From NCBI GenBank assembly GCA_017469935.1, contig JAFUFL010000004.1, positions 40,385 to 104,384 of the forward strand: DNA of 64,000 bases. Reading direction: 5' to 3'. Both the position numbers and the translations under genes were made by a program. This document shows, piece after piece, positions 3,201 to 60,805 of this stretch (the stretch's first letter is position 1; every line of letters starts with the position of its first letter). The notes beneath the pieces are model-generated. The model saw only the letters and a list, made by a program, of their open reading frames with translations. It made no database searches and was not told the DNA's origin. Source of the stretch: Lachnospiraceae bacterium. GTDB lineage: Bacteria > Bacillota > Clostridia > Lachnospirales > Lachnospiraceae.

Positions 3201-4775
3201 TATAAACGCCTCATACTCGTCGGAGAGCAGATCCTCCTTCGTGTAAAGCTCCTGCGCCGTCTCATACAGCTCTCGGTTGTCCCCGGGCAGATAGACGGAG
3301 ACGCCTCCGGCCCCTTCCACGTTGGAGGTCGCTCTGACCACCATTTCCCCGACTGCCTTCTCCAACTCGCCGCTCTCCTGCGGAAGCATAACAGCCGTCC
3401 CGGCCGCAAGGTCCCGCAGATCGATCAGGTCATAGGCCTGTGTCTTGGTATCAGAGGCACTCAGGCCAAATGCCTTGGCCTTCCCTCTCGCCTGATTGAG
3501 CAGTGCATAGTTTCCCTTCCCGATTTCCGCCCTCATGGCGGCAAAGAGCTCGTCTGCCGCGTCGATCACCCGTTCCGTCCTCGACAGATCCAGGGCCGAC
3601 AGCGTCACATCGGGATTAAAGAAGGTCGACCGATTTTTCTCATAATAAGCGCCGTAGGCGTCCACAATCCCGCTGACGATCTCCCTTGCGTCCGTAGTCT
3701 CGTTGAGGACGCGCAGAAATGTATAGTCCCAGCCTCTGCCGGGCTCGAGCTCCTCCGATCCCACCAGGTAGTCCGCGTAATTCTTCCACAGATTGGCGCT
3801 CTCGAGGCCTCCCATCAGGCAGGCGTCAAAGCCCACCCAGTCCAGCCTGGAGCTCCCTTTGGCGCTCTGTACGGCTCCTGTCTGCCCCTGTCCGAACACG
3901 GTCGCGTCCATGGCGCTGCGCATCTCTTCCATGAGGAGGCTGTCATTTCGGAACAGCTCGTCGCTCCCATATCCCCACAAGGGGCCTCCTCCATGATCCC
4001 ACAGGATCAGTCCATAGTGCGCAGCCGGATAATTTTCTGTGCAGTAATTGACAAACTCGGCCAGCGTCTGCGGAATTCCCATGTTGGCGCTCGCATCCGT
4101 GCGGGCGATGATCTTATTCCCCGCTTCCTGCTCCTCCGGGTCTCTTGACATGTCCAGCACATTGTTGCTGGTACTCGGTATGTCGCTGACCCACCTCTTA
4201 CTCCCCCCTGTATACACCAGGAGGTTGTTCTTCTCGAAGTTCAGGCCCGCCTGCCTCATCTCTTCAATGTCATTTGTCGCGCTCCCATAGCGGCTCTCCA
4301 GGTTGGAGCCCACAATGTAGACCATGACCGTATAGTCTTTTTCCCGCGAAACCTTCGGGGCTCTCTCCCCGCTTTCATCTGCCGCTTTGAGCACGCTGTT
4401 CGACGCGTCTTCTGTCTTTGTCTTCTTTCTGCCCGCGGCCGACCGGTAGTTTCCCTCCTTCTCTTCGATGATGACCAGGCCGGACTGTCCCCCTTCTTCG
4501 GAGCCCCCGGAGGCGGCATCCTGAGACTGTTCGGCGCTGCCGTCCCCGGATTGGTCAGAGACGGCGTTCGGCTCCGGCTCCCCGGCAGGCACAAATCCCT
4601 CACCGCTGTCAGTCTGACTCTGCGCGTCTGTCCGGCCTTCTGGCCCATCGCTGCCTGTCCGGCCTTCCGTCCCGTCGCTGCTGCCGGCGCCGCCCGAGGG
4701 GCCGGCACACGCAGAGACCGCCAGTAAGATTGAGAGCAATACTGCTGTAAGTTTTTCTGCTGCAGAACTTTTCAT
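207..4775 (-). CDS. C11 (clostripain) peptidase - BspA leucine-rich-repeat lipoprotein
   Basis: A 1522-residue surface lipoprotein. The start at 4775 follows a GGGAGG site and gives a type II signal peptide with lipobox VSAC; an upstream in-frame start would bury it. Residues about 25-140 are Gly/Ser/Glu-rich linker. A clostripain-type C11 domain follows, with catalytic His261 in LILWDHGGG and Cys319 in GFDACLMG. From about residue 820 to the end come many BspA/LRR_5 repeats (pattern IG..AF....L..V.LP). C11 enzymes cut after basic residues; the LRR part presumably binds a surface or host ligand (inference). It is a paralogue of the protein at 49776-54470, with the same order of parts. It lies downstream of the phosphatase gene but behind a terminator, so is probably transcribed separately. 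The substrate cannot be read from sequence. Confidence 0.88.
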   Translation of the reverse strand: MKSSAAEKLTAVLLSILLAVSACAGPSGGAGSSDGTEGRTGSDGPEGRTDAQSQTDSGEGFVPAGEPEPNAVSDQSGDGSAEQSQDAASGGSEEGGQSGLVIIEEKEGNYRSAAGRKKTKTEDASNSVLKAADESGERAPKVSREKDYTVMVYIVGSNLESRYGSATNDIEEMRQAGLNFEKNNLLVYTGGSKRWVSDIPSTSNNVLDMSRDPEEQEAGNKIIARTDASANMGIPQTLAEFVNYCTENYPAAHYGLILWDHGGGPLWGYGSDELFRNDSLLMEEMRSAMDATVFGQGQTGAVQSAKGSSRLDWVGFDACLMGGLESANLWKNYADYLVGSEELEPGRGWDYTFLRVLNETTDAREIVSGIVDAYGAYYEKNRSTFFNPDVTLSALDLSRTERVIDAADELFAAMRAEIGKGNYALLNQARGKAKAFGLSASDTKTQAYDLIDLRDLAAGTAVMLPQESGELEKAVGEMVVRATSNVEGAGGVSVYLPGDNRELYETAQELYTKEDLLSDEYEAFIDAYTKEWFAGTDADWTLADLQKGEAEWTLQLTPEQARYASECCYTVLFRNGWGDYQIATCNKRIYADPDNILHVPQDPLLLTAQTDLQESARPWACYQVSDSGGESVYKTAGTILSSGHEFSGFDKSVDEEVSVSVRNVSGERETTIQDVVADAGGISLSGKGSVDVSGYRSIVDAGGDTICPVRDENGQMKPYTDWEYKGYLFYQLAIDDSFRFFMKPASEFEVDCICQVTVKDVNGNLHGTNYVELDLEGERETAEIGTEKGTLYFDLKEDGAQLTKYTGQDTSLAVPDRVLGKPVTAIGQSAFSGIGTLESVTLPDSVTQIGKSAFYGTEGLRQIRLPARLETIGVSAFRNSGIEEIQLPEGLSKIGRAAFIYSGLKAVKIPDSVWEIGGAPFAGCKNLAEITVSGNPHYRSVDGVLYSADGKALVQYPAGRAGGEYTVEEGTEEIGYGAFAQAGLEKVEFPQTLRTIANDAFFECYGLTELQFPDSLQRIGSMAFGRDRAAEEVPEGQVPLDSVRIGPAVTSIGTDAFTALQIAAFEVDGANPVYASSGGFITNKAGDMIQTVPMMRGSSLVIPEGITTLQSGLFTAMDETMGFYVPDSVFRFSENVFPRGKETSRETGKLEEIYRCTLHCSKDSAARQYADKYGIAWDSVIDPESEKFEKAIEKGAHGTFYYRVFSDRAELYAYKEAKGEETGTLQIPSAYEGLPVTALRFDPEAKEDKLNYSIGVDKIVVSGAVREIDIDFLRGHSFISGIEVSSDNADYSSADGVLFTGDKKTLVCYPVRREGADYEIPEGVETLGDRAFALNTEIAKVTMPRSLRVIGKECFVTCRSLRSAVFNKGLKEIGDQAFLYTALENVQLPSSVEWIGSGAFLLHDAFGEIVLPEKLRKMGYAAFEADYGKTFTQEVIRIPARLQIELCFLERVLFARYEVDPESTFYKEEDGILMSLDGSALISVGVKDKESGEYKYVIHCHEGSEAGKKLDAAKIPWQVIEE

Positions 4776-4796
4776 GGTAACCTCCCCGATAAGGAA

Positions 4797-4822
4797 AAAG
4801 CGGATATTATCTATCCGCTTCT
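4797..4822 (-). terminator. Rho-independent terminator of the phosphatase gene
   Basis: On the minus strand an 8-bp stem AGCGGATA/TATCCGCT with a five-base loop is followed by TTTTTCC. It lies between the stop of the phosphatase gene and the start of the C11/BspA gene. Confidence 0.75.
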
Positions 4823-4865
4823 CTTCCCCTGTGCCCATCACCAGCCGCGGCACGATTCGCTCTGG

Positions 4866-9405: not shown

Positions 9406-9574
9406 GGTTGGACTAAAGCCGCATTTTTTACTGCCTCGGCCCCCATGAAGAATTTCTGAAACAGCTTATTCCTGTTGATTTGACGCAAGAATCCTGCCCC
9501 AATAGTGGCATTTTCAACTTTTCTTATTTTTTGCATGGGGGCCACAGGAACAAAATCATGTCAAATAATCCAAC
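9406..9574. mobile_element. MITE-like palindromic element, family 2, copy D1
   Basis: Begins GGTTGGAC and ends ATCCAAC. Inside, a GGCCCCCATG / CATGGGGGCC pair is separated by about 90 bp. The left arm aligns well with the copies at 11177 and 11271 (GTTGGAC, then AGCC, a T6 tract, then GGCCCCCAT). Its right end overlaps the region where the start of the following nuclease-like gene should be. No transposase is inside. The mobile nature is inferred from the inverted ends and recurrence. Confidence 0.55.
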
Positions 9575-9760
9575 ACATCGAAATCCCACTCGCAATTCAC
9601 CCGGCGCGCAGAGCAACCAGGCATTCAACTTGTAACAAGGGAGCAGTCTCGTCTCCTCCAGGAAAAAGCGGATCTTGAGCAACAAATTCATGCTGCCCCT
9701 CCCGGAGCTCTCACCTTTGTCAAAAACAAATCAAAAAACAGAATCTACTACAAATGGTAT

Positions 9761-10450
9761 GTGAGAAACGAAAATGCCGGTTCTCGCCGCACCAAAACCT
9801 ATCTTCCGCGAAAGAAAAGGCCATATGCCAAAAGACTGGCAGAAAAAGGCCTTCGCCAGGCACGCCTCGACGATATCAATCGGGAACTGAAAGCGTTGGA
9901 CGCTTACCTGCGTAAGCACTGTGACAGCTCTTTCTGGAACAAACTGATCACTTCTCCCGGCTACGGAGAGCTCTACGCCGATGATATAATCCCGACAAAT
10001 GCTAAATTAGAAGACGAGCTCGAGAAATGGGCACATGAGAAATTCGAGTCCAATCTCAAGCACCCTGAAGAACTAAATGTTCCGACAGATTACGGTATTT
10101 TCGTCCGCTCCAAATCAGAAGCCATCATTCTTATGCTTCTCGTCATGTACCGCATTCCTTTTCGTTATGAATGCAGGCTCGACGTCGACGATCATGTTTA
10201 TTATCCGGATTTCACAATCCGCCATCCTCTCACCGGCGAAATAATATACTGGGAACATGCCGGAAAAATGGATGACCCGGCCTACCGATCCGAATTTCTC
10301 ACAAAGACCCGCATCTATTACAATAACGGCATTCTTCCCGATCATAACCTGATCCTCACCTTTGAGAGTAAAGGTCATCCCTTGGACATTTCCATTGTCA
10401 TGGATAAGTTCAGAGAATTCTTCTTCTGCAACAAGCAGGCTTTAAACTGA
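9761..10450 (+). CDS. PD-(D/E)XK nuclease-like protein, N-terminally damaged copy
   Basis: 229 residues from a GTG at 9761. It is a paralogue of the intact protein at 45023-45862, sharing RSKSEA, YPDFTIRHP, (I/L)YWEH and LPDHNLILT. The spacing of the conserved Glu, Asp and Glu fits a PD-(D/E)XK-type core, although the usual ExK lysine is absent (EHA). Codons matching the paralogue's N-terminus continue upstream in the same frame to about 9623 without any ATG, GTG or TTG. The nearest ATG with a weak AGGA site (9558) is in another frame and stops at 9635. The gene therefore probably lost its start to a frameshift or to element D1. Whether the short GTG form is made is unknown. Confidence 0.6.
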   Translation: MRNENAGSRRTKTYLPRKKRPYAKRLAEKGLRQARLDDINRELKALDAYLRKHCDSSFWNKLITSPGYGELYADDIIPTNAKLEDELEKWAHEKFESNLKHPEELNVPTDYGIFVRSKSEAIILMLLVMYRIPFRYECRLDVDDHVYYPDFTIRHPLTGEIIYWEHAGKMDDPAYRSEFLTKTRIYYNNGILPDHNLILTFESKGHPLDISIVMDKFREFFFCNKQALN

Positions 10451-11176: not shown

Positions 11177-11462
11177 GTTGGATCATAACAGCAATTTTTC
11201 TTCCTTGTGCCCCCATGTCATTTTTCTCTTGCCTGCTATTTTCATTAAAAATGAGGAATATTCTTCCGGCGTTGGACCATAGCCGGCTTTTTTGCGGCTG
11301 TGGCCCCCATACGGCATCGTGATGCCGTATGGGGGCCACTCGCTTCAGCTTGTGCATTATAGTCCAACCCGACCAGAAAAGAGCCTGAATAAGCGTCCGA
11401 TTCAACCGCCTGCCCATTTTCCATGGAGGCAGGCGGTCAATAGCAAGCTCATATAATCCAAC
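11177..11462. mobile_element. Palindromic element, family 2, outer copy D3
   Basis: Bounded by GTTGGATCATAA and TATAATCCAAC. The left arm carries GTGCCCCCATG as in the other family members. It encloses the smaller copy D2 (11271-11368) and a separate 10-bp stem (ACCGCCTGCC / GGCAGGCGGT, 11405-11437), so it looks like nested insertion. A C-rich imperfect repeat stretch begins directly after 11462 and runs to about 11635. No gene is supportable in 10963-11686. Confidence 0.45.
11271..11368. mobile_element. Palindromic element, family 2, copy D2
   Basis: A 98-bp imperfect palindrome, GTTGGAC...GTCCAAC. Its centre (11300-11339) is a perfect 19-bp inverted repeat around a two-base loop, containing GTGGCCCCCATACGG and its complement. 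Such a stem with so short a loop would extrude as a cruciform or fold as a strong hairpin. Confidence 0.65.
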
Positions 11463-35549: not shown

Positions 35550-35620
35550 GTTCTCTGCTCTAAAGCGGGCAGAAGCTCCGGCCGCAGCCGGGCGCTTCCG
35601 CCCAGATTGATTCGATTCAA

Positions 35621-35695
35621 GGCTCACACTGCGAGCCGCCGCGCCGCGCGCGGGCTGCCCGGATGGCAGCTGCTTCCTTTCCGCATGCATGCGCG
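35621..35695. repeat. REP-like multi-hairpin repeat, copy R1
   Basis: GGCTC/GAGCC stem, a CCGCGCGCGG palindrome, GCTGCC/GGCAGC stem and a CGCATGCATGCG palindrome in order. The repeat at 38540-38615 has the same order with changed bases. It lies in the 177-bp gap 35550-35726. Confidence 0.6.
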
Positions 35696-35726
35696 TCGAA
35701 TGACTCAGCAGGGAGCTTCCTCAGCC

Positions 35727-38460: not shown

Positions 38461-38539
38461 GATGACCTCCACCATTTGTAAGTTACTGTTTCAGCCGGCC
38501 GGACGCCTGTGCGCCCGGCGCGGCTAATTTCAGGATTTA

Positions 38540-38615
38540 GGCTCGCGGTGCGAGCCGCTGCGCCGCATGCGGGATGCCTGCATAAGCAGCATCTTCTTTA
38601 CCGCACGCGTATGCA
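38540..38615. repeat. REP-like multi-hairpin repeat, copy R2
   Basis: A perfect GGCTCGC/GCGAGCC hairpin, a CCGCATGCGG palindrome, then GATG-CTGC/GCAG-CATC. Same architecture as 35621-35695; located in the 187-bp gap before the binding-protein stop. Confidence 0.62.
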
Positions 38616-38647
38616 TCATGTTAAGATCCGTTTTGTTCAGGTTCCGA

Positions 38648-44579: not shown

Positions 44580-44648
44580 GCGGGGCCGGGGGGCTTGGCG
44601 GCGGCCTGGCGGCTGCTTGGCGCGGCTTCGCCGCGGCCGCAAACCGCC
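44580..44648. repeat. GC-rich degenerate repeat abutting the 208-bp element
   Basis: Imperfect GGCGG-CTGGC(T/G)GC units with one CGCGGC/GCCGCG hairpin, ending exactly where the element copy at 44649 begins. It may also end methylesterase transcription, but lacks a clear T run of its own. Confidence 0.45.
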
Positions 44649-44856
44649 TTTTAGGCACAAACTTGATTTTTCGCTATTTTGACTCCCAATATTCAACTCG
44701 CTCTTTGCGCATATGGCTTCGATTGGAATCTGTTTTTTCCATAAAGCGCTCGTCTGCCTAGTTCTATGGAAAATTTCTTCTTAAATCGGACAAAAACCAC
44801 ATTTATTCAGACCCCTTTAGAATATGATTCTGCAGATTTGGCCATTTATGCCTAAA
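44649..44856 (-). mobile_element. 208-bp structured TIR element, copy C (diverged)
   Basis: Ends TTTTAGGCACAAA and TTTATGCCTAAA as terminal inverted repeats. Length equals the other two copies. Internal landmarks shared with copy B in order: CGCTATTTTGAC, TCCCAAT...ATTGG stem, GCCTAG, (A/G)TGGAAAA, TTTGG(C)C. The sequence is strongly diverged otherwise. It lies 166 bp before the intact nuclease-like gene; 44857-45022 shows no further gene. Confidence 0.55.
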
Positions 44857-45022
44857 CGCCGCCTTCATCTCGCGCATCTCACAAATCTTGCCACCCTCTT
44901 GTCTATCCATTCATGAAGTTATATAATTCTGGCAGCCGGACCGCAGAAACTGCTCCCGGCTGTCTTATCTGTACTTCTATTCTAATCACATTTCATCTCC
45001 ATTCAGGAGGAAAGGACAAGTC

Positions 45023-45862
45023 ATGGAAATTCAACAAATTGTACAAACCGAAATCACCCGTCTTCTTAAAGAAAGAGTCCGCCTTGAGAATCTTCTGCGG
45101 GAATTGCCCGAGGGCAGCCTGATCATCACCAAAACCAATATTGGCGGCAAGACTTATCACAAGTGGTACTCTTCCACAATCTCCGCAGACAGCGGCAAAA
45201 AAGTTCATAAGTATATCCCCAAAGCCGACAAACCGCTTGCCGCCGGCCTCGCCCGCAGACAGTTTTACCTCAGACAAATTGAAGAAATCGACAACGAACT
45301 GGATGCTCTGAACGCATATCTTTCAAAACATCGCTCCCCCACAGTTCTCGACTCCGTTTTTGATGATGCTGCGCTTGTGAATATTTTGAAAAAAGAGCTT
45401 CCTGCCCCGGAAGCTTCACTGGCCGAAGAACTCAATAATTGGGTACATGCGGTTTACGAAAAAAATCCCAATCATCCCGAAAAGCTGGTCGTCCCTACAG
45501 TAACCGGAGAAATGGTCCGCTCGAAGTCAGAAGCAATGATCCTGATGCTTCTTGAATATTCCGGCATCCCGTACCGTTACGAATGCAGGCTGGATATCGA
45601 CCGCAAGGCATATTATCCGGACTTTACAATACGCCATCCCTATACAGGTGAAATCCTTTACTGGGAGCATGTCGGTATGCTCGACGATCCCTCCTATCGC
45701 TCGGATTTTCTTAACAAGCTCCACAAATATATCAATAACGGTCTGCTTCCGGACCACAATCTGATTCTCACCTATGAAAGCGACGGTCATCCCCTTGATA
45801 TTAAGATTGCACTCGATAAAATCAGGGAATTCCTGTCATACGATGGACTTCTGACTGTTTGA
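45023..45862 (+). CDS. PD-(D/E)XK nuclease-like protein, intact copy
   Basis: 279 residues, AGGAGG upstream. Residues 1-30 look like a coiled coil, about 31-75 a small beta part (GSLIITK...HKWYSS, basic KKVHKYIPK), and 76-105 a second helix pair. The C-terminal half holds Glu170 (RSKSEA), Asp200 (YPDFTIRHP) and Glu215 (LYWEHVG) at the spacing of a PD-(D/E)XK core. The usual ExK lysine is replaced, as EHV, so activity must be tested. I recall this as a multi-copy hypothetical family in gut Clostridia. It is flanked by inverted copies of the 208-bp element. Function unknown; a DNA- or RNA-processing role is inference. Confidence 0.75.
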   Translation: MEIQQIVQTEITRLLKERVRLENLLRELPEGSLIITKTNIGGKTYHKWYSSTISADSGKKVHKYIPKADKPLAAGLARRQFYLRQIEEIDNELDALNAYLSKHRSPTVLDSVFDDAALVNILKKELPAPEASLAEELNNWVHAVYEKNPNHPEKLVVPTVTGEMVRSKSEAMILMLLEYSGIPYRYECRLDIDRKAYYPDFTIRHPYTGEILYWEHVGMLDDPSYRSDFLNKLHKYINNGLLPDHNLILTYESDGHPLDIKIALDKIREFLSYDGLLTV

Positions 45863-45920
45863 CAGAACTGCATCACTCATTTTTTAAAGGAGAAAAAATG
45901 GAGGAGACAAGGGATTTGTG

Positions 45921-46046
45921 CGGCGCAGGGAATTGCGTGGCGCAGGAAATTGTGTGGCGCAGGGGATTGCGTGGCGCAGGGGATTGTGCGGCGCAGGGGA
46001 TTGCGTGGCGCAGGGAATTGCGCGGCGCAGGGGATTGCGTGGCGCG
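45921..46046. repeat. 17-bp tandem repeat, 7.4 copies
   Basis: Unit (T/C)GGCGCAGG(G/A)(G/A)ATTG(C/T)G from 45921. The array stops about 4 bp before the element copy A. Reading frames across it are only repeats and are not called genes. Confidence 0.9.
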
Positions 46047-46049
46047 AAA

Positions 46050-46257
46050 ATTAGGCATAAACAGCCAAATTGGGCAGAAGAGATCCCAATGGCTTCAGAA
46101 AAAGCCATGATTTCTGTCAAATCAGGAAGACTTTTTCCACAGCTCTAGGCATAGCAGCACCCCTAGAGAAAAAATATCTCCCAATTGCTTGCTTCAGCAC
46201 AACGTTCAGGCAAGAAATTGGGAGATGAAATTGTCAAAATGGCGTTTTATGCCTAAA
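46050..46257 (+). mobile_element. 208-bp structured TIR element, copy A
   Basis: Terminal inverted repeat TTAGGCATAAAC..GCC / GGCGTTTTATGCCTAA. Internal stems: ATCTCCCAATT..CTTGC with its complement (long hairpin near the right end), CTCTAGG/CCTAGAG, and GAAAAAG/CTTTTTC enclosing TTTCTG/CAGGAA. About 94% identical to copy B in reverse orientation. No open frame of note. 45863-46374 otherwise holds only the two tandem arrays. Confidence 0.75.
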
Positions 46258-46268
46258 GCACCGCATCG

Positions 46269-46343
46269 CCGCGCATCCTATCACCGCGCATCCTATCACC
46301 GCGCATCCTATCACCGCGCATCACCTCGCCGCACATCAAACCG
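46269..46343. repeat. 15-bp tandem repeat, five copies
   Basis: Unit CCGCGCATCCTATCA at 46269, 46284 and 46299, then two degenerate units. It starts about 11 bp after element A and ends shortly before the ABC exporter stop. Confidence 0.88.
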
Positions 46344-48323: not shown

Positions 48324-49346
48324 TCAAGCTTCCCGTATCTTCTTGTTCAGTGTATTGAGGACATGCTTCTTGTCGGCGCTCCACAGGGGTGCGACGAGAA
48401 GCTTTTTTGGCCCGTCTCCCGTGATCCGGTGGACGACCGTCTCAGGCGGAAGAAGCTTTAGGCAGTCGACGATCAGGTCGCTGTAGGAATCAAGTGTGGG
48501 CAGCGGGAAGGGCTCAGCCTCATATTCGCCGGCAAGCTGCGTCCCTTTTAAAATATGCAGAAGCTGGAGCTTGATGCCGTCAAGGGGCGGCTTCAAATGC
48601 GAGAGATAACGGACGGTTTCCAGCATATCTTCGCGCGTCTCGCCGGGGAGTCCCAGGATGACGTGGACGATGACTTCGAGGCCGGCGGGATATGCCGCGG
48701 ATGCACAGCGGTCTGTCAACGGCGCTGTATGCCCGTGTGTCGCGCCGGTTCTGGCGGCTTCCCCGGAGGCAGTCTCGGCAGCCGCGTCCTGTGCGCCGAA
48801 GGGTTCCTTGAGCCTGCGGTAAGCATCTTCAAAAACCGGAAGTTCGTACCCGCGATGAACGCGGCGCGCCGTCTTCTCGTGGATCGTCTGCAGGCCCAGT
48901 TCTACCCAGACAGGCTTGCCGGAGGAAATCTGAAGATCCCGAAGCATCTGCACCGTTTCATCGGGGAGGCAGTCCGGGCGCGTGCCGATGTCCAGGGTAA
49001 CAATCTGAGGATGGGAAAGCGCCTCCAAGTAGAGAGCACGGAGCCGGTCGACATTTCCGTACGTGTTGGTATAGGACTGGAAATAGGCGATATAGCGGCG
49101 GTCCTGCGCCGCGATGGAAGCCGGGATCTTGGGATCCACTCGCTCTCGGGCTTCTTCGATCTGCTCGCTTATGGGCAAAAGCGGCGCGGCGAAATCGCCG
49201 GAGCCGCCCTCCGAGCAGAAGGTGCATCCGCCGGTTCCTATGGACCCGTCGCGATTCGGGCAGGTGCAGCCGCTCTGCAGGGACAGGCGGTAGACTTTGG
49301 TGCCGAAGCGACGGCGCATGGATTCGTTAAAGGAGAGGTAGTGCAT
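48324..49346 (-). CDS. Radical SAM protein of the YhcC/TIGR01212 family
   Basis: 340 residues. The iron-sulfur cysteines are in SGCTCPNRDGSIGTGGCTFC, with TIGR01212 features YFQSYTNTYG, IGTRPDCLPDE and WVELGLQTIHEKTA. A roughly 40-residue Ala/Thr/Gly-rich insertion follows residue 195 and is unusual for the family. Role unknown; relatives are thought to act on tRNA or other cellular substrates. AAAGG lies before the start. Confidence 0.9.
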   Translation of the reverse strand: MHYLSFNESMRRRFGTKVYRLSLQSGCTCPNRDGSIGTGGCTFCSEGGSGDFAAPLLPISEQIEEARERVDPKIPASIAAQDRRYIAYFQSYTNTYGNVDRLRALYLEALSHPQIVTLDIGTRPDCLPDETVQMLRDLQISSGKPVWVELGLQTIHEKTARRVHRGYELPVFEDAYRRLKEPFGAQDAAAETASGEAARTGATHGHTAPLTDRCASAAYPAGLEVIVHVILGLPGETREDMLETVRYLSHLKPPLDGIKLQLLHILKGTQLAGEYEAEPFPLPTLDSYSDLIVDCLKLLPPETVVHRITGDGPKKLLVAPLWSADKKHVLNTLNKKIREA

Positions 49347-49627
49347 AGTTCGTACCTTTCAAATTTGTATCTGATGCTGCGGCCCGACCCGCCCGCAGAG
49401 GCAGCCCTGTTAGCCGCACCTCTACAATATCATATACAGAAGATCCAAATCATCCCAATTATCGGTCAAAATACCGGACATACGCAGTGACCGGGTCTGC
49501 GGCGCCTCACAGAACATTTAACCATCTCCCGAGAACGGCATCATATCGTGCTCCGACCTCCCTTTGGGCAAGATAAATACATCAGAAAACAGAAATTAAG
49601 CTGTATATTTAAAAGGGAGGGTAACAC

Positions 49628-49666: not shown

Positions 49667-49710
49667 TCAATTGCAGAGGCAGTGGAAACTACACGGAGCG
49701 GGCCGCAAGG

Positions 49711-49743
49711 CCGGGCAAAGCCGCGTTCGCGGCGTTTTGCCGG
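49711..49743 (+). promoter_or_regulatory. Stem-loop in the 5' region of the second C11/BspA gene
   Basis: CCGGGCAAA-CCGCG/CGCGG-TTTTGCCGG with a two-base loop, 32 bp before the start. It may affect mRNA stability; no terminator function expected. Confidence 0.4.
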
Positions 49744-49775
49744 ATCAGCGCCGTACCATGACAAGGGGGACTTAT

Positions 49776-52700
49776 ATGAAAAAGGCCATATCATTTCTGC
49801 TCAGCTGCGCACTGGTCATGACGGGCTGCGGCGCCGCGCAGGGCACAGGCGGCAGCTCGGGGGCGGCGGGGACCACCCGGGAGACGGCACGGGATAGCGC
49901 CGAACAGGCGCAGGAGAATGCGGAAGAGGCACAGGAAAATTCGGAAGAGGCACAGGAAAATTCGGAACAGGCGGCGGAAGCCGGTACGGCCGGCGAAAAA
50001 CCCGCGCTCGAAGTCCTGGGTGAAGAAGAGGATACTTTCGACAGGGCGGTAAAGAACCGCTCCTCACAGACGGCGGCGGACCCGGACGCCTGTATTCTTC
50101 GCGAGAGAGTGTCGGCGCAGACAGGCACTGAGGGCGCACGGACGGAGAGCGAGGCCGGCGGGCCCGCCGCAAAAGCCCCGAAAGAATACACCGTCATGGT
50201 CTATGTTGTGGGATCCAACCTGGAGAGCCGGGTGGGCGCCGCCACTTCGGACATCGAAGAGATGGAAGACGCGGGACTTGATTTCGATAAGACCAATCTT
50301 TTGGTGTACACGGGCGGAAGCAGGCGCTGGGTCAGCGATATCCCCAATGACACGAACAGCGTGCTGGACATTTCCCGGGAGGACGAAGGCCGGATCATAG
50401 CCGGGACCGACCGGGCGGCGAATATGGGCTCTCCGCAGACGCTGACGGAATTTGTCAATTACTGCACACGAAATTATCCGGCGGATCACTATGCGCTGGT
50501 CCTGTGGGATCACGGCGGCGGGCCGCTGTGGGGATACGGAAGCGATGAGCTGTTCGGAAATGACAGCCTGAACCTGGATGAGCTGCGCACGGCCATGAGC
50601 GGCACCATGTTCGGAACGGACAGGAAGCTGGACTGGGTGGGCTTTGACGCCTGCCTGATGGGCTCGATCGAGAATGCGGTCCTGTGGAAAGATTATGCGC
50701 AGTACCTGATCGGCTCGGAAGAAGTGGAAGCCGGCCGCGGCTGGGACTATCATTTCCTGAGCGTGTTTAATGACTCGCCGACGGCGGAGGAGTCCGCGCG
50801 CGCGGTCGTAGACGCGTACGGGACTTATTATGAAGAGAACCGGAGTGAATTTTTTGCCCCCGACGCGACGCTGTCCGTGATGGACCTGTCTGCCGCGGAC
50901 GGGGTGACGGACGCCGTCAATTCGCTGTTCAGTTCCATGAATGAGGGAGTCCTCGGCGGAGACTATGCGAAAATAAACCAGGCAAGAAGCAAGGCAAAGG
51001 CCTTCGGACTGAGCTCGGTGGAAAGTGTAGAGGCGGCCTACGACCTTCTCGATCTTAAAGATTTCACCGAACAGCTCCGGGAGCTCTATCCGTCGGAGTG
51101 CGACGCGGCAGCCGACGCGGTGGACCGGATGGTGATCCATTCCACCGCCAATGTGGAGGGAGCCGGCGGCGTATCCATATATATACCCGGAAACAACAAA
51201 GCTCTTTACAACGCGTCGGAGGATCTTTCCGCGGGGAATGAACCGATCTCCTCCGGATACGGGAATTTTGTGGATTCCTTCGCGGGAGAATGGATGGCGG
51301 AGTCGGAGATCGCCTGGAATCTGGAGGCGCCCTCCGTCAGCGGTGACGAACTGACGCTGCCGCTGACGCAGGAGCAGGTGCAGAACGTCTCCCAGGCGTA
51401 TTACGCAATACTTTGGCGCAATTCCGCCGGCGAGTACATGAGGGCCCTGATCGATATACCGATCGAGGCGGACGAGGAGGGAATCCTGCATATTCCCGCG
51501 GATCCCATGCTGGTGACGACGACTTCGGATATGCAGAAAAACGAAATCCCCTGGACCTGCAGGCAGGTCTCGGCCAAAGCGGGAGTCAATACCTACAGCA
51601 CGCTGAAGACCTATATCAGCGCCGCAAATGAATTTACGGATTACCAGCCGATTCTCGATGAGGAAGTCGAGGTTATATTCAAGAATAAAGCCGGAGAGAG
51701 CGGGACGACGGTAAAGGATGTTATTTCGCTCAGCGGAGGCGCCTGGAGCAGCGGAAAGGGATCGGTCGATGTGACGAGCTACACGACCATCCTGGATATG
51801 GGGTGCTTCGGACGAACCCCCAGGAGAAAAGAAAACGGGGAGATGGAACCTTTTTCCAACTGGAACAAAAGCGGGTCTTATGAGTCTTCTCCGCTTCCGG
51901 TGGACAAGAGCTTCAGTTTTGTCATGAGACCGGCGTCGTCCTTTGATCTTAAGTTCATATGCCAGGTTGTGGTCAGGGACGTTCACGACGGAATTCACGC
52001 CTCTGACTACACGGAGCTGCCCGTCGGGAAAGAGAGGGAGATCGTCGAGGAGAAGACGCCCGGCGGCGTGCTCCGGTATGAGATCTTCGAGGATCACGCG
52101 GAGCTGTATGAATATGAGGGGAGCGATACGGCGGTCGAGGTCGCCGCTGCCGTTTCGGGAAAGCCCGTGACGGTTATCGGAGGCGGCGCTTTCCGGAGCA
52201 ACAACGACAAATACCTCACCGAAGAACCCTATGCGGAGACCGTCAAACTCCCGGATTCGATCACGGAGATCGGTGTCTTGGCCCTGCCTCATGTAAAGCA
52301 GGTCAATCTCCCGGACGGACTAAAAGTCATAGGGGAGAGAGGGCTTGAGTACCTCGGCGCGGAAGAGATCACGCTTCCGGACGGCCTGGAGAGCATCGGC
52401 TCGGCGGCATTTATGGGAAGCGAGCTGAAAAAGGTGAAGATTCCGGATTCTGTTCAAAAGATAGGCCCGATCCCGTTTTTGTACTGCAGCCGTCTTAAAG
52501 AGATCCAGGTCGGGAAAAACAATAAGAACTATAAATCCGCAGACGGCGTTCTTTACACAAAAGACGGGCGCAGGCTCATTCAGTATCCGGCGGGAAAAGG
52601 AGAGAGCTGCCGCATAGAAGAGGGAACGGAGACGATCGCGTACGGCGCTTTTGCCGCCACGGACAGCAGCGGCCTGCTCGACGAAGCCGTGTATCTGAGG

Positions 52701-54470
52701 CAAGTCACATTTCCCGACACGCTCAGGACCATAGAGAACGCGGCGTTTATTAACTGTGAATATCTGGAATCGATCGAGCTTCCGGATTCGCTGGAAAAGA
52801 TCGGGAAGGACGCGTTCGGAAAGGTATTCAATTACTATGCTCCCGAGACGCAGATCGGGCCGATCCGGATCGGCCCGGCGGTCAGGGAGATCGGCGAGTG
52901 GGCCTTTTCCGGGATCGGGACCGAAGGCTTCGAGGTGGACGAGAATAACGAATACTATGCTTCGCGAGACGGTTTTATAACAAATAAAGCCGGCGACACT
53001 ATTTTGGCGGCACCGCGCCGGACAGACGGAAATCTGGAGATCCCGGAGGGAATTACGACGCTCCCTGACCATGTGTTCATGCATGTGTTCGCTCCGGATT
53101 TTTACATTCCCGACTCGGTCTTCAGGTTTGCGCCGGAGACATTCGGAGATAATGCGCCGAATATCACGATCCACTGCACGGACGGCTCCGCCGCCAAGGC
53201 TTATGCGGAGAAATACGGCATCAATTATGAGATCGTCGGCGAAGAAGGGGTGAGCGGGGCCGCCGCGAAGTCCGCCTATACCAAAGAGACACAGAGCGAG
53301 GACGGCGTCACGCTGCTCTGGCATGTATTCGCGGACCATGCGGAACTTGCGGAAATGGAGACGGACGATTCGAAGAAAGTATATGAAGTTCCCGCGCAGT
53401 ATAAAAATCTTCCCGTTACCGCACTGGGATCTGAGGGACAGACTGAATATGAGCTGGGGGCAGCCTACGTGGATAAAATAGTGATCCCGGCATCCGTGCA
53501 GAGCGTAAGCGTAGAGTTTTTGGGGAACCTGTACGGTACTGTGCAGATCGAGGTCGCGAGGGACAACCCCTCGCTTCGAAGCGTGGACAATGTCCTGCTG
53601 ACGCAGGACGGCGAACTGCTGTTTTATCCGAGGGACAGGCAGGATCGGGAATATACGGTTCCGGACGGCACAAGGGCAATCGGGGAAGAAGCTTTCTATT
53701 CATGCTCCTATCTCGAAAAAGTCACGCTGCCGGATACGGTCTATACCATAGGGAAGAGTGCGTTCCAAAACTGTTATCTCCTCGCAGAGGTGACTTTGGG
53801 AGAAGGGATTGAAAATATAGATAACGGTGCGTTTTGGGGCTGCGATGCCCTGACCCGGATCGATTTCCCCAAAAATCTGAGAACGATCGGAGATTACGCT
53901 TTCCGTGATACAAAGCTCAGAGACGTCAAAATCCCGTCGACAGTCGAGGCGATCGGCAGTGCTGCCTTCACGGTCGGAGAGGGCTTCGGGGAGATCACGC
54001 TTCCCGAGAACCTGACCTATCTGGGATTCAGTGCATTTGAAGCGGACGATTCCGCCGAGGCGCCCTACCGTGCGCAGCAGGAGTCCCTGAAGATTCCGGA
54101 AGGGATTCTCTTCGAGCCCGGCATGATCCAGGGCATTGAGGTCATGAATTTCGAAGTGGCCGAAAACAATCCCCATCACAGCATTAAGGACGGGCTTCTC
54201 ATGAGCGCGGACGCAAAGACGCTGGTATGCGTGCCCGGAGGAAGAGAGGGAGAGCTGACGGTTCCGGAGGGAACGGAGACGATTCAGTATTATGCGTTTA
54301 ACGAGTGTCCGCATCTGACGGATGTCTATGTGCCCGACTCGGTGACCGACATAGGAAACCTGGGAGAGGACGGATTTGATGCGCCCTGCCCTTATAAAGT
54401 GCACTGCCATGCGGGATCGGAGACGCAGCGGCAGCTGGAGGCCGTATCGGTTGAGTGGATTGAGTGGTGA
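49776..54470 (+). CDS. C11 (clostripain) peptidase - BspA leucine-rich-repeat lipoprotein, second copy
   Basis: 1564 residues from the ATG at 49776 (AAGGGGG upstream), giving a lipoprotein signal with lipobox MTGC. A seven-residue AQEN(A/S)EE repeat at about 48-70 forms a charged linker. The C11 domain has catalytic His246 (LVLWDHGGG) and Cys293 (GFDACLMG). BspA/LRR_5 repeats fill from about residue 790 to the end, with interspersed blocks like YKSADGVLYTKDGRRLIQYP. Same architecture as 207-4775, so the two arose by duplication and diverged. Probably an anchored surface protease or adhesin; targets unknown. Confidence 0.88.
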   Translation: MKKAISFLLSCALVMTGCGAAQGTGGSSGAAGTTRETARDSAEQAQENAEEAQENSEEAQENSEQAAEAGTAGEKPALEVLGEEEDTFDRAVKNRSSQTAADPDACILRERVSAQTGTEGARTESEAGGPAAKAPKEYTVMVYVVGSNLESRVGAATSDIEEMEDAGLDFDKTNLLVYTGGSRRWVSDIPNDTNSVLDISREDEGRIIAGTDRAANMGSPQTLTEFVNYCTRNYPADHYALVLWDHGGGPLWGYGSDELFGNDSLNLDELRTAMSGTMFGTDRKLDWVGFDACLMGSIENAVLWKDYAQYLIGSEEVEAGRGWDYHFLSVFNDSPTAEESARAVVDAYGTYYEENRSEFFAPDATLSVMDLSAADGVTDAVNSLFSSMNEGVLGGDYAKINQARSKAKAFGLSSVESVEAAYDLLDLKDFTEQLRELYPSECDAAADAVDRMVIHSTANVEGAGGVSIYIPGNNKALYNASEDLSAGNEPISSGYGNFVDSFAGEWMAESEIAWNLEAPSVSGDELTLPLTQEQVQNVSQAYYAILWRNSAGEYMRALIDIPIEADEEGILHIPADPMLVTTTSDMQKNEIPWTCRQVSAKAGVNTYSTLKTYISAANEFTDYQPILDEEVEVIFKNKAGESGTTVKDVISLSGGAWSSGKGSVDVTSYTTILDMGCFGRTPRRKENGEMEPFSNWNKSGSYESSPLPVDKSFSFVMRPASSFDLKFICQVVVRDVHDGIHASDYTELPVGKEREIVEEKTPGGVLRYEIFEDHAELYEYEGSDTAVEVAAAVSGKPVTVIGGGAFRSNNDKYLTEEPYAETVKLPDSITEIGVLALPHVKQVNLPDGLKVIGERGLEYLGAEEITLPDGLESIGSAAFMGSELKKVKIPDSVQKIGPIPFLYCSRLKEIQVGKNNKNYKSADGVLYTKDGRRLIQYPAGKGESCRIEEGTETIAYGAFAATDSSGLLDEAVYLRQVTFPDTLRTIENAAFINCEYLESIELPDSLEKIGKDAFGKVFNYYAPETQIGPIRIGPAVREIGEWAFSGIGTEGFEVDENNEYYASRDGFITNKAGDTILAAPRRTDGNLEIPEGITTLPDHVFMHVFAPDFYIPDSVFRFAPETFGDNAPNITIHCTDGSAAKAYAEKYGINYEIVGEEGVSGAAAKSAYTKETQSEDGVTLLWHVFADHAELAEMETDDSKKVYEVPAQYKNLPVTALGSEGQTEYELGAAYVDKIVIPASVQSVSVEFLGNLYGTVQIEVARDNPSLRSVDNVLLTQDGELLFYPRDRQDREYTVPDGTRAIGEEAFYSCSYLEKVTLPDTVYTIGKSAFQNCYLLAEVTLGEGIENIDNGAFWGCDALTRIDFPKNLRTIGDYAFRDTKLRDVKIPSTVEAIGSAAFTVGEGFGEITLPENLTYLGFSAFEADDSAEAPYRAQQESLKIPEGILFEPGMIQGIEVMNFEVAENNPHHSIKDGLLMSADAKTLVCVPGGREGELTVPEGTETIQYYAFNECPHLTDVYVPDSVTDIGNLGEDGFDAPCPYKVHCHAGSETQRQLEAVSVEWIEW

Positions 54471-54548: not shown

Positions 54549-55577
54549 TCAGCTTACGCTGACTTCCCCGGCGAGGATCTTCTTGTAATCGGCGAGATTC
54601 TTGCGCAGAAGCTCGGGAGTATCCAGCTCGTAGGGACAGCGCTTTGTGCACTGGCGGCAGTTTATGCAGGTCTCTATTTTGGCCATTTTCTGCCGGTACT
54701 CTTCGGAGAGCCACCTGGCGGAGGGCGCGCGGCGCAGCATCAGGGACATACGGGCGCAGTTGTTAATTTCAATCCCCATGGGGCAGGGCAGGCAGTATCC
54801 GCAGCCGCGGCAGAAGTCGCCGGCAAGTTCATCCTGCTCGCTCTTAATGTAGGCGGCGATCTCGCCGGTCATGGACGGCGTCTTGTCCATATAGGAGAGC
54901 CACTCCTTCAGCTCGCGCTCGCGCTGGACGCCCCAGATGGGCACAAGGTTGTCGAACTGCGTCATGTAAGCCATGGCGGCGTCGGAGCGGGTGATCAGGC
55001 CGCCCGCCAGCGCTTTCATGCAGATAAAGCCCATATCCTTTTCCACGCAGGCGCGCACCAGAGCTACCTCTTTTTCCGAAGAGAGATAGCTGAAAGGATA
55101 CTGCAGGGTCTCGTAGAGACCCGACTCGATGATCTCCTGTGCCACGGCAAGCTTGTGGGTCGTGATGCCGATGTGGCGGATCAGCCCTTTCTCCTTGGCC
55201 TGCACGAGACATTCGTACATTCCGGTGCCGTCGCCGGGCCGGTAGCACTGGCCCACCATATGCAGCTGGTAGATGTCGATGTAGTCGGTGCGAAGGTTTT
55301 TCAGAGACGTCTCCAGGTCTTTCCAAAAGCCTTCCGGCGTTTTGGCCGCGGTCTTGGTGGCGATATACACTTTTTCGCGCATGCCGTCGAAAGCTTCGCC
55401 GACCTTTTCCTCGCTGTCGGTGTAAGCCCTGGCGGTGTCAAAAAAGCGCATGCCCCCCTCATAGGCCTGCCTCAGGAGGCCGACGGCCACTTCGGTGGTG
55501 TCACGCTGGATGGGAAGACATCCGAAGGCGTTCTGGGGGACGATGATTTCTGTGCGGCCGAGTCTGACATTTTTCAT
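54549..55577 (-). CDS. Aldo/keto reductase with C-terminal 4Fe-4S ferredoxin domain
   Basis: 342 residues. TIM-barrel AKR core with DTARAYTDSEEKVG (Asp, Tyr), the Lys of VYIATK and the His of YQLHMVG. From about 265, CGYCLPCPMGIEINNC and CINCRQCTKRCPYEL are cysteine clusters of a ferredoxin-like domain. Such fusions are common in Clostridia and probably draw electrons from ferredoxin-linked carriers; substrate unknown. Confidence 0.9.
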   Translation of the reverse strand: MKNVRLGRTEIIVPQNAFGCLPIQRDTTEVAVGLLRQAYEGGMRFFDTARAYTDSEEKVGEAFDGMREKVYIATKTAAKTPEGFWKDLETSLKNLRTDYIDIYQLHMVGQCYRPGDGTGMYECLVQAKEKGLIRHIGITTHKLAVAQEIIESGLYETLQYPFSYLSSEKEVALVRACVEKDMGFICMKALAGGLITRSDAAMAYMTQFDNLVPIWGVQRERELKEWLSYMDKTPSMTGEIAAYIKSEQDELAGDFCRGCGYCLPCPMGIEINNCARMSLMLRRAPSARWLSEEYRQKMAKIETCINCRQCTKRCPYELDTPELLRKNLADYKKILAGEVSVS

Positions 55578-55669: not shown

Positions 55670-55792
55670 TGTGCGGCGGTTTGAGGCGCTGCGCGGTGAT
55701 AGAATGTGCGGCGGTTTGGTGCGCTGCGATGTGACGCGATGTGCGGCGGTTTGATGCGCGGAGATGTGATGCGATGTGCGCCGGTTTGATGC
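55670..55792. repeat. 35-bp tandem repeat, 3.5 copies
   Basis: Unit starts TGTGCGGCGGTTTG at 55670, 55705 and 55740, with a partial unit at 55775. The array ends exactly where the element at 55793 begins. Confidence 0.85.
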
Positions 55793-56000
55793 TTTAGGCA
55801 TAAAACGCTATTTTGACAATTTCATCTCCCAATTTCTTGCCTGAACGTTGCGCTGAAGCAAGCAATTGGGAGATATTTTTTCTCTAAAGGTGCTACCATG
55901 CCTAGAGCCGTGGAAAAAGTCTTCCTGATTTGACAGGAATCATGGCTTTTTCTGAAGCCTTTGGAATCTCTTCAGCCAAATTTGGCTGTTCATGCCTAAT
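55793..56000 (-). mobile_element. 208-bp structured TIR element, copy B
   Basis: Inverted relative to copy A and about 94% identical to it. Ends TTTAGGCATAAAA and TTCATGCCTAA. All internal stems are present, plus a perfect CAGCCAAATTTGGCTG palindrome that copy A has lost. Confidence 0.75.
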
Positions 56001-59236: not shown

Positions 59237-60649
59237 TTGGATTATATACGAACTGACGCCGATGGGCAATTAACACTTGCACAATCTACTGAGTTTCTTA
59301 AGATTCCTTGCTGCCTATACGGATTCGTGAATGAGTCGACTTCCACCGGTCTGTCTGTATCCGGCAGGACCGTGATCCGTTTTCACGGCTCACTTCAGGC
59401 TGATAATGAGGAGCTTACCTGTAGTTGCTGCGGTTCAAAGATGCATGTGAACAATCATCCGGGCATCACGCTACGCCATCTTCCGTTTGGAAGCTTTCTG
59501 AGCGATGTCTCATTCACCAGGATTCAGTATGCATGTCCCAGGTGTGGCAGTACCCGTATGCAGTATGTTTCCTTTAAAGTTCCCGGACACCGGATCACGA
59601 CAGAACTGTATCAGTATGTCTGCGATCTTCTGGCCAGCGGCACTTACACGAACAAGGAAGTTGCAGAGCTTACCGGCCTCGGGAAGAACGTCATAAAGGC
59701 AATCGATATGACTCGTCTTCAAGAACTGTATACTACTTCGGACGGAAAGCTTATCAAGCCGGAAAAACATGCGAAATTCCTTGGTATCGATGAATTCAAA
59801 CTCCACAACGGGCACCGGTATGCCACCCACATCATCGACATGGAAACCGGACATATCCTCTGGATCGCAGGCGGCAAGAAAAAGCAGGTTGTGTATGACT
59901 TCATTGAGCATGTCGGACTGGAATGGATGGATCATGTCGAAGCCGTTGCCTGCGATATGAATTCTGATTTTCAGGAAGCCTTCGAGGAAAAGTGCCCCCA
60001 TATCCAGCCGGTATTCGACTACTTCCATATCGTCAAGAACTTCAACGATAAGGTAGTAAGCGAGGTACGTAAGGATGAACAGCGTCGCCTTTATGAGGAA
60101 GGTAACATTGAAGCTGCCCGGACTCTGAAGAAAACAAAGTATATCCTGACATCATCCCGGGAGACGCTTCAGAAGAAAGATGACGATGCCGCTCAGGAGC
60201 GGGTGATCCGCAAAGGGAGCAGTCTGTTCAAAACGGAGAGTTTTATCCGTAAGTCCGGGTATGAAGAGCGCTACAACAGGCTTCTCGAAGAGAATAAGCT
60301 CTTCTTTACCCTCGATTTGATAAAGGAGAAACTGGCACAGGCCTATTCACGGACTGATGAATGCCTCATGTCAGAAGATATCATCAGCATCATGGATATA
60401 TGCCATGCGACCGGCAATGCCCATCTGCTTTGGTTTGAGCGGCTGTTGAGCAATCATTTTGAAGGGATCATTGCTCACGCTACCTACGATATATCTGCGG
60501 CGAAAATCGAAGGTATCAACAACAAGATCAAAACTCTTCGCAGACAGGGGTATGGCTATCCGGATGATGAATACTTCTTCCTGAAGCTATTTGACATGAG
60601 CAGGAGGGCCTATGTCCGGAATCCTAAATCCCACAAGTTTAGTGATTGA
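59237..60649 (+). CDS. ISL3-family transposase
   Basis: 470 residues from a TTG with AAGGAGAT upstream. N-terminal zinc finger (CSCCGSK and CPRCGS), helix-turn-helix near 140-160, and a DDE catalytic set at Asp185 (LGIDEF), Asp240 (CDMNSDF) and Glu425 (KIEGINNKIKTLRRQGYG). Length is normal and no frameshift is seen. Terminal inverted repeats could not be placed with confidence. Downstream, a 22-codon open stretch continues in frame past the stop. Confidence 0.92.
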   Translation: MDYIRTDADGQLTLAQSTEFLKIPCCLYGFVNESTSTGLSVSGRTVIRFHGSLQADNEELTCSCCGSKMHVNNHPGITLRHLPFGSFLSDVSFTRIQYACPRCGSTRMQYVSFKVPGHRITTELYQYVCDLLASGTYTNKEVAELTGLGKNVIKAIDMTRLQELYTTSDGKLIKPEKHAKFLGIDEFKLHNGHRYATHIIDMETGHILWIAGGKKKQVVYDFIEHVGLEWMDHVEAVACDMNSDFQEAFEEKCPHIQPVFDYFHIVKNFNDKVVSEVRKDEQRRLYEEGNIEAARTLKKTKYILTSSRETLQKKDDDAAQERVIRKGSSLFKTESFIRKSGYEERYNRLLEENKLFFTLDLIKEKLAQAYSRTDECLMSEDIISIMDICHATGNAHLLWFERLLSNHFEGIIAHATYDISAAKIEGINNKIKTLRRQGYGYPDDEYFFLKLFDMSRRAYVRNPKSHKFSD

Positions 60650-60772: not shown

Positions 60773-60805
60773 CGAGCGAGCCGCTGCGCTGCGTGCGGGC
60801 TGCCC
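60773..60805. repeat. REP-like sequence, partial copy R3
   Basis: GAGCCGCTGCGC(T)GCGTGCGGGCTGCCC matches the centre of the repeats at 35621 and 38540. A CTCGGTG/CACCGAG stem lies just before it. Confidence 0.4.

Follow-up and report, generated by a model that had tools for sequence, protein, structure and literature searches.

A two-domain PD-(D/E)XK-like protein family of Lachnospiraceae and the arrays of short, helically spaced words that often flank its genes

In Neisseria, the Ssn/NTS system comprises a lone, site-specific nuclease of the GIY-YIG type, which cuts single strands and whose cognate sequence is repeated within its own genome; helically phased inverted pairs are not known from this system. 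Type III toxin-antitoxin loci such as ToxIN carry a repeat array just upstream of the nuclease gene, a feature also seen in the family described here. A further arrangement is that of the REPtrons (RAYT/TnpA-REP with cognate REP/BIME), in which a single gene is accompanied by its own short sites in inverse orientation; these occur in tandem copies, are specific for the protein, are sometimes concentrated near the gene and are mostly intergenic (PMC8266576).

The REPtron is closest in its way of working to the pair of nuclease gene and array reported here, with an unrelated protein. The nuclease gene likewise has linked, cognate short sites in inverse orientation, and in 30 of 54 arrays the exact word was present at least twice in each orientation. 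However, the invariant residues are of the PD-(D/E)XK type and not HuH/Tyr, with no invariant H-x-H pair in 31 homologues, and the 279-aa protein had no Pfam transposase match. Nor do the arrays fit a single-strand hairpin REP with a GTAG-type tag: the 205-bp element described below lacks covariation and the words vary by gene, no common tag being seen; instead, the sites fit binding to duplex DNA at whole helical turns, and at least 14 elements are present rather than hundreds. Because it departs from them in catalytic class and does not build on single-strand hairpins, we do not count the pair among the REPtrons. Ssn has a different nuclease fold. The candidate defence protein PDC-S68 of PADLOC (about 1200 aa) has a homologous C-terminal nuclease domain, whereas the 279-aa protein has its own N-terminal region and arrays and lacks the other 1,090 profile positions; as only positions 1091-1217 of 1221 were matched, membership was rejected. 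CRISPR was set aside because in six arrays inspected the spacers repeat as well. As far as titles and abstract openings of a largely open-access literature tell, no description of this pair of nuclease and array was found among the matches listed. The pair is set apart from the named systems by its protein family, by the geometry of its sites and by its probable substrate, and we rate it as new; if cutting and spreading were proved, it could equally rank within the systems of a nuclease with its own repeats.

The locus lies in a 64,000-nucleotide stretch (the window; G000:C50:40385-104384) of a 3.55-Mb draft genome, G000, and its features are listed in Table 1. Elements C and A share a TTAGGCA start and a TGCCTAA end. 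That A is inverted to C, as stated in the preliminary description, was confirmed by an inverted alignment over 209 bp (64% identity, 69.7 bits); the elements exist as described there, at lengths slightly shorter than the 208 bp given. In Lachnospiraceae bacterium UBA4260 (locus L047), a gene for a protein 95% identical to the 279-aa protein is accompanied by both elements in the same order, and a degenerate form of the 17-bp array, read by eye, occupies the same place; our use of the family name is based on this relative. Element C is 83% identical to the element at this place in the UBA4260-like genome G043; G043 and UBA4260 do not differ in the sequence of their element C.

Table 1. Features of the two nuclease-like loci and of element B (positions within the window)
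Feature	Position	Strand	Basis
Inverted pair GGCCCCCA (forward, 9438)/TGGGGGCC (reverse, 9536) upstream of p2	9438-9543	.	
Paralogue p2, 48% identical, damaged copy likely	9626-10450	+	ORF and homology
p2 sites: TGCCCCCA (forward, 11208), GGCCCCCA (forward, 11302), TGGGGGCC (reverse, 11330)	11208-11337	.	
Degenerate GC-rich 11-bp tandem array upstream of element C	44592-44637	.	4.3 copies, 80% match
Element C, 205 bp, inverted TTRGGMR pairs	44651-44855	+	element alignment
Nuclease-like gene, two-domain protein, 279 aa	45023-45862	+	ORF
17-bp tandem array	45910-46045	.	8.0 copies
Element A, 206 bp, inverted to C, 94% identical to B	46051-46256	-	element alignment
15-bp tandem array	46265-46322	.	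3.9 copies
35-bp tandem array adjoining element B	55670-55792	.	tandem-repeat call
Element B, 206 bp, nearest copy of A	55794-55999	+	element alignment

The 279-aa protein consists of an N-terminal region (about residues 1-130) followed by a PD-(D/E)XK-like domain at about residues 148-270. In 31 aligned homologues, R166, S167, K168, E170, Y186, E187, D200, F201, E215, H216, G218 and E252 were invariant, giving the pattern R-S-K-x-E, Y-E, D-F, E-H-x-G, E, of which E170-D200-E215 fits a PD-(D/E)XK core. The provisional assignment to a PD-(D/E)XK-like class is based on this residue pattern and on PADLOC labels; the PADLOC model named PDDEXK gave a weak match (E 7e-4), and searches of Pfam, NCBIfam and PDB returned no credible relative.

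To compare the flanks of homologues with those of other genes, two sets were assembled, one from the same genus and named relatives (matches down to E 9e-14; 47 of 59 homologue ORFs kept) and one of 60 matches from 36 genomes of other genera (51 kept), homologues whose 700-bp flanks ran off the contig being excluded. An array was scored where an 8-mer recurred in at least five copies within the 700-bp flanks, and a flank match where the upstream and downstream 700-bp flanks matched with at least 50 bits. Control ORFs were taken from the homologues' own loci, to which the pooled test added own-genome loci. The paralogue p2 counted as a homologue in the first-set and pooled tests; three helicase fusions (L048, L050, L051) entered the first-set counts and were excluded from the pooled and word-sharing analyses.

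In the first set, flank matches were obtained for 13 of 47 homologues, including the window gene and L047, compared to 2 of 311 control ORFs, which shows that the succession of element C, gene, 17-bp array, element A and 15-bp array is real and beyond chance. Recurrent 8-mers were present at 24 of 47 homologues and 22 of 311 controls, the top controls being mostly neighbours that share a homologue's array. In the second set, 31 of 51 homologues carried an array, compared to 37 of 214 controls overall and 4 of the 69 clear of a homologue; the corresponding numbers for flank matches were 6/51, 2/214 and 0/69. The survey of homologues against other genes that the preliminary description had proposed bore the association out, with arrays at 55 of 95 homologues and 7 of 329 distant controls in the pooled test, and the arrangement proposed there, one gene family with different repeat families in a similar layout, recurs in Lachnospiraceae far above control genes. 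The same description had held that homologues lacking flanking elements, or elements equally common near unrelated genes, would refute a link, and both were found in part: 40 of 95 homologues were array-free by the 8-mer test, and 12 of 14 TTAGGCA elements lie near unrelated genes. The window gene and L047 are scored among the array-free homologues because each has only four exact 8-mer copies, below the five-copy threshold; in both, the word is degenerate, and the window gene passes the flank-match test. Separately, the control ORFs L212 6600, L212 898 and L195 1025 have arrays of 9-17 copies with no detected homologue nearby, which may be orphan arrays or those of another family.

The words that make up the arrays vary by homologue and are common mainly to close ones. 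TTGGGCA was found at L052-L055, L057 and L062, and other words were AGGCCCAC (L187), CCGACTGA (L216), CTTACATA (L227), CCGATGTA (L218) and TTAGCCTA (L197). Of the 93 entries examined, 54 bear arrays; in ordered pairs of these 54, words were shared in 12 of 16 at 70% protein identity or more, a bin inflated by some pairs that are the same locus in sister species, in 19 of 58 pairs at 45-70%, in 7 of 334 at 35-45% and in 37 of 2454 below 35%. The repeat word tracks protein relatedness. L052, L055 and L062, which represent different loci with proteins about 50% identical, have 6, 12 and 4 copies of TTGGGCA, even though the flank sequence that L055 has in common with the other two is limited to an alignment of 15 bp (L052) or 41 bp (L062). 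The close relatives L058-L061 are without TTGGGCA arrays (0, 0, 0 and 1 copies). Words that differ between genes, together with the spacing described next, suggest that each enzyme has its own set of DNA docking sites.

The spacing of the words followed a common rule. Measured between sites of the same orientation, the modal distance of 38 among the 52 arrays fell at 51-53, at 61-64 or at 70-75 bp. With one modal value per homologue, the phase at 10.5 bp reached R=0.715 (n=52), and R=0.718 (n=46) after removal of six near-duplicates, values attained by none of 100,000 jittered sets in either case; the best-fitting period was 10.4. With the motif-free Tandem Repeats Finder, the 92 arrays located no more than 1 kb from a homologue, related genomes included, had R=0.57 and the 42 arrays located elsewhere R=0.21, the phase being significant near the gene and not elsewhere. 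Inverted neighbours were separated by 24-34 bp in 17 of the 21 arrays for which at least three offsets were available (ties assigned to the smaller value), a range that is partly forced, since alternating sites and a 52-75-bp period cap the shorter gap at about 37 bp. Such spacing would be expected if proteins bound along one face of the double helix. The preliminary description spoke of palindrome families; single-strand palindrome structure as the key feature was not supported: a consensus fold of 22 oriented copies of the 205-bp element (RNAalifold) contained 15 pairs, two of them with a double change, and a covariation term of +0.1. Covariation was also absent from other consensus folds, one of whose alignments (A2) mixed both orientations. 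Because of the whole-turn spacing and a consensus fold without covariation, we read the arrays as duplex-DNA sites.

The TTAGGCA element was found in at least 14 copies in G000 and in 11 copies in G043 by BLAST and a bounded pattern, with two further copies seen in G043. Among 62 genomes of the genus, the exact element pattern occurred only in G000 and G043 (10 each) and in G007 (1), and since four genomes each gave a single match to the reversed control pattern as well, chance may account for the G007 copy. The copies are 204-206 bp long despite a median pairwise identity of 61%, and 22 co-oriented copies (14 from G000, 8 from G043) aligned almost without gaps. Within these, the motif TTRGGMR, picked by eye from the alignment before counting and scored with one mismatch allowed, occurs in forward orientation at positions 1 (22/22), 73 (16) and 167 (12) and in reverse orientation at 33 (21), 105 (17) and 199 (19), compared to a maximum of 4 in 200 shuffles. 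These six main sites form three inverted pairs with an offset of 32 bp each, the pairs being 72 and 94 bp apart; an extra reverse site at 128 (12 copies) lies outside the pattern. Conservation within the element had no ten-base periodicity. A tandem array lay no more than 250 bp from 7 of the 13 own-genome elements; for random placements, most of which are inside genes, the figure was 12%. By its dispersal and its terminal inverted TTAGGCA/TGCCTAA, the element resembles MITE or IS-derived repeats, from which it differs in that its terminal word recurs inside it with constant spacing; a by-eye look at the element flanks noticed no target-site duplication.

When seven element sites of G000 were compared to G043, six were occupied in both genomes (C50a, C50b, C, A, B and C105b). 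At the seventh, C105a, G000 has the element and G043 has unrelated palindromes, with flanks 91-94% identical. The comparison of occupied and empty sites that had been suggested thus yielded one difference in seven, and the shared sites indicate that element movement is rare or old. At the differing position (L256 1480-1870, G043:C11), the palindromes CCTTCTTCAGTGGATATTCCACTGAAGAAGG and a relative replace the element of G000 and perhaps represent another element family. Element A is 60% identical between the two genomes, compared to the 94% between A and B within G000, a likeness as after gene conversion; the similarity and inversion of A and B would need only ordinary recombination. In L052, the genes at 54562-55577 and 48328-49360, located between A and B in the window, are reversed in order beside the nuclease gene, a comparison covering only these two genes of the interval, which places A and B, or their forerunners, near inversion breakpoints. 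In genome-wide searches, the L055 array was found at its gene, again at a distance of about 6 kb and, as a weak match, on a single further contig, and those of L085 and L187 were confined to their own gene, so that a general dispersal of arrays was rejected. The proposed spread of elements is accordingly supported in part, by the copy number of the TTAGGCA family and by the one site that differs from the relative, and does not extend to the L085 and L187 arrays.

In a genome search, the 279-aa gene and p2 were the only two copies found, both inside the window. The frame of p2 is open from 9569 and homology extends from about 9626, with no in-frame ATG, GTG or TTG before 9761; p2 looks damaged, as a usual start codon is missing where homology would place it, and with its sparse array it is probably decaying. 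Its two forward sites at 11208 and 11302 are 94 bp apart and its inverted neighbours 28 bp, close to the 94 and 32 bp of the 205-bp element. The earlier view of p2 as boxed in similarly by a different repeat family holds in that it has its own motif and an inverted pair; however, the layout is far sparser, and its flank match came to no more than 16.8 bits. A homing endonuclease gene would be expected inside its own cleavage site, with an intact empty allele elsewhere; G003 does lack p2 at this site (about 228 compared to 1408 bp), where loss would fit as well as insertion and, the genomes being drafts, a misjoined contig is possible.

The association, the correspondence of word and protein, the spacing, the dispersal in one lineage and the turnover at one site are what the data show. 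To explain them, we favour, with a probability of roughly 55%, a PD-(D/E)XK-like protein of two domains that has its cognate sites in duplex DNA and would bind arrays cooperatively, cut, and spread them through repair in a TnpA-REP-like manner; word reading by the N-terminal region, dimers, binding, cutting and spread are what we infer from sequence. The N-terminal region probably reads one word of 7-9 bp. Cognate sites would be inverted word pairs repeated at whole helical turns, so that dimers align on one face of the duplex and may assemble cooperatively along an array. The nuclease domain may then nick or cut between inverted sites, and repair of the cuts would copy, homogenise and occasionally relocate array DNA. 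The arrays flank the gene with an upstream bias, about every second one having copies on both sides, and in this lineage have become the three-pair 205-bp element at no fewer than 14 places. The protein may thus make, move or cleave the elements, as initially proposed. If this is true, dozens of natural protein-word pairs would be readable directly from sequence. They would offer material for studying how specificity is written into a small DNA-binding region, and might yield nucleases that act site-specifically on two sites; the lifestyle of a nuclease with its own repeats would have arisen outside HuH proteins, and the constant-length intergenic repeat families of Lachnospiraceae would be accounted for. 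A bolder form, which we hold only tentatively, adds that the cis arrays, grown and moved by a nuclease with a private word, also restrain it, with phased dimers forming a filament; gene and sites would together form a unit that maintains itself and that diverges in specificity every time it is duplicated.

Regulation alone is a rather unlikely explanation. The arrays would be operators through which the protein or a partner sets its own expression, with slippage expanding the repeats and nothing being mobilised. Helical spacing is typical of cooperative operators, and an upstream excess was observed, with 278 of 435 motif copies upstream and 20 of 54 arrays upstream only; however, 26 arrays lie on both sides and 8 downstream only, and the 12 of 14 TTAGGCA elements away from nuclease genes in G000 are not expected of operators.

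We regard as improbable that the protein is a restrained defence nuclease, whose cis arrays titrate or park an enzyme attacking word-bearing or decoy-poor foreign DNA, the array acting as a DNA antidote and loss of the locus freeing the enzyme. This reading draws on the domain's relatives and distribution. The C-terminal 120 residues or so match PDC-S68 with E 9e-30, and the nuclease domain also occurs in larger proteins, RecQ-like and UvrD-like by eye, and in plasmid-borne proteins annotated as ATPase or helicase; phage and plasmid records (3 and 8) contain the nuclease domain only. A phage origin was rejected, as four single-protein queries, with a reach of close relatives, gave no viral-contig relative. 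Of 41 genus genomes, 28 had homologues, which in six of the 28 were no more than weak matches to larger proteins; across the family, homologues were present in 66 of 200 genomes (one per genus, G000 included), at least six of them via large or partial proteins only; the distribution is patchy and multi-copy, and the hosts are gut and rumen Lachnospiraceae. Across 398 genomes of the phylum, 13 matched at E 1e-12, five own-family genomes over the full length and the remaining eight by the nuclease domain only. Against a parked enzyme stands the dispersal of arrays in G000.

That the genes are bystanders sitting in repeat-rich intergenic hot spots is disfavoured, even though the tandem arrays of 17, 15 and 11 bp resemble minisatellites of the usual kind and the intergenic fraction around homologues is 0.57, compared to 0.26 around controls. 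After matching for intergenic fraction (0.4-0.8), the excess of arrays persisted (32 of 58 homologues compared to 5 of 77 controls), the word tracks protein relatedness, and helical phasing reaches significance for the 92 arrays close to homologues but not for the 42 elsewhere. Least probable is an RNA antidote or RNA element, in which transcribed arrays would form hairpins in the manner of type III toxin-antitoxin systems: upstream arrays do end 30-140 bp before the start codon in several loci and element A folds strongly (z -7.5), but another copy folds weakly (z -2.0), the 22-copy consensus has next to no covariation, RNA gives no reason for a 10.5-bp spacing, sites of either orientation occur, frequently to both sides of the gene and in some loci downstream only, no Pfam relative of the protein was found and the whole window had no Rfam match at the gathering threshold.

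Some further features were observed in the surroundings of these genes. Next to a Bacillota homologue from goat omasum (L049 1427-2400), palindromic elements with CCTGTTCCAG/CTGGAACAGG ends were seen downstream by eye, and elements of this type also adjoin an acetyltransferase-like gene. A GC-rich dispersed repeat of about 85 bp, GCTGCCCTTCGGGCAGCCCGCAC...GGCTCGCGCTGCGAGCCTTGA, is present in the window at 35615-35697, 38539-38619 and 60776-60805, as well as in L106 (17091-17587) and at more than 20 places in G043. The window also contains an ORF at 59237-60649 resembling an ISL3-family transposase by eye and, near its two ends (207-4853 and 49671-54470), genes for proteins of 1548 and 1599 aa, which by eye appear paralogous and secreted and contain peptidase-like and leucine-rich stretches.
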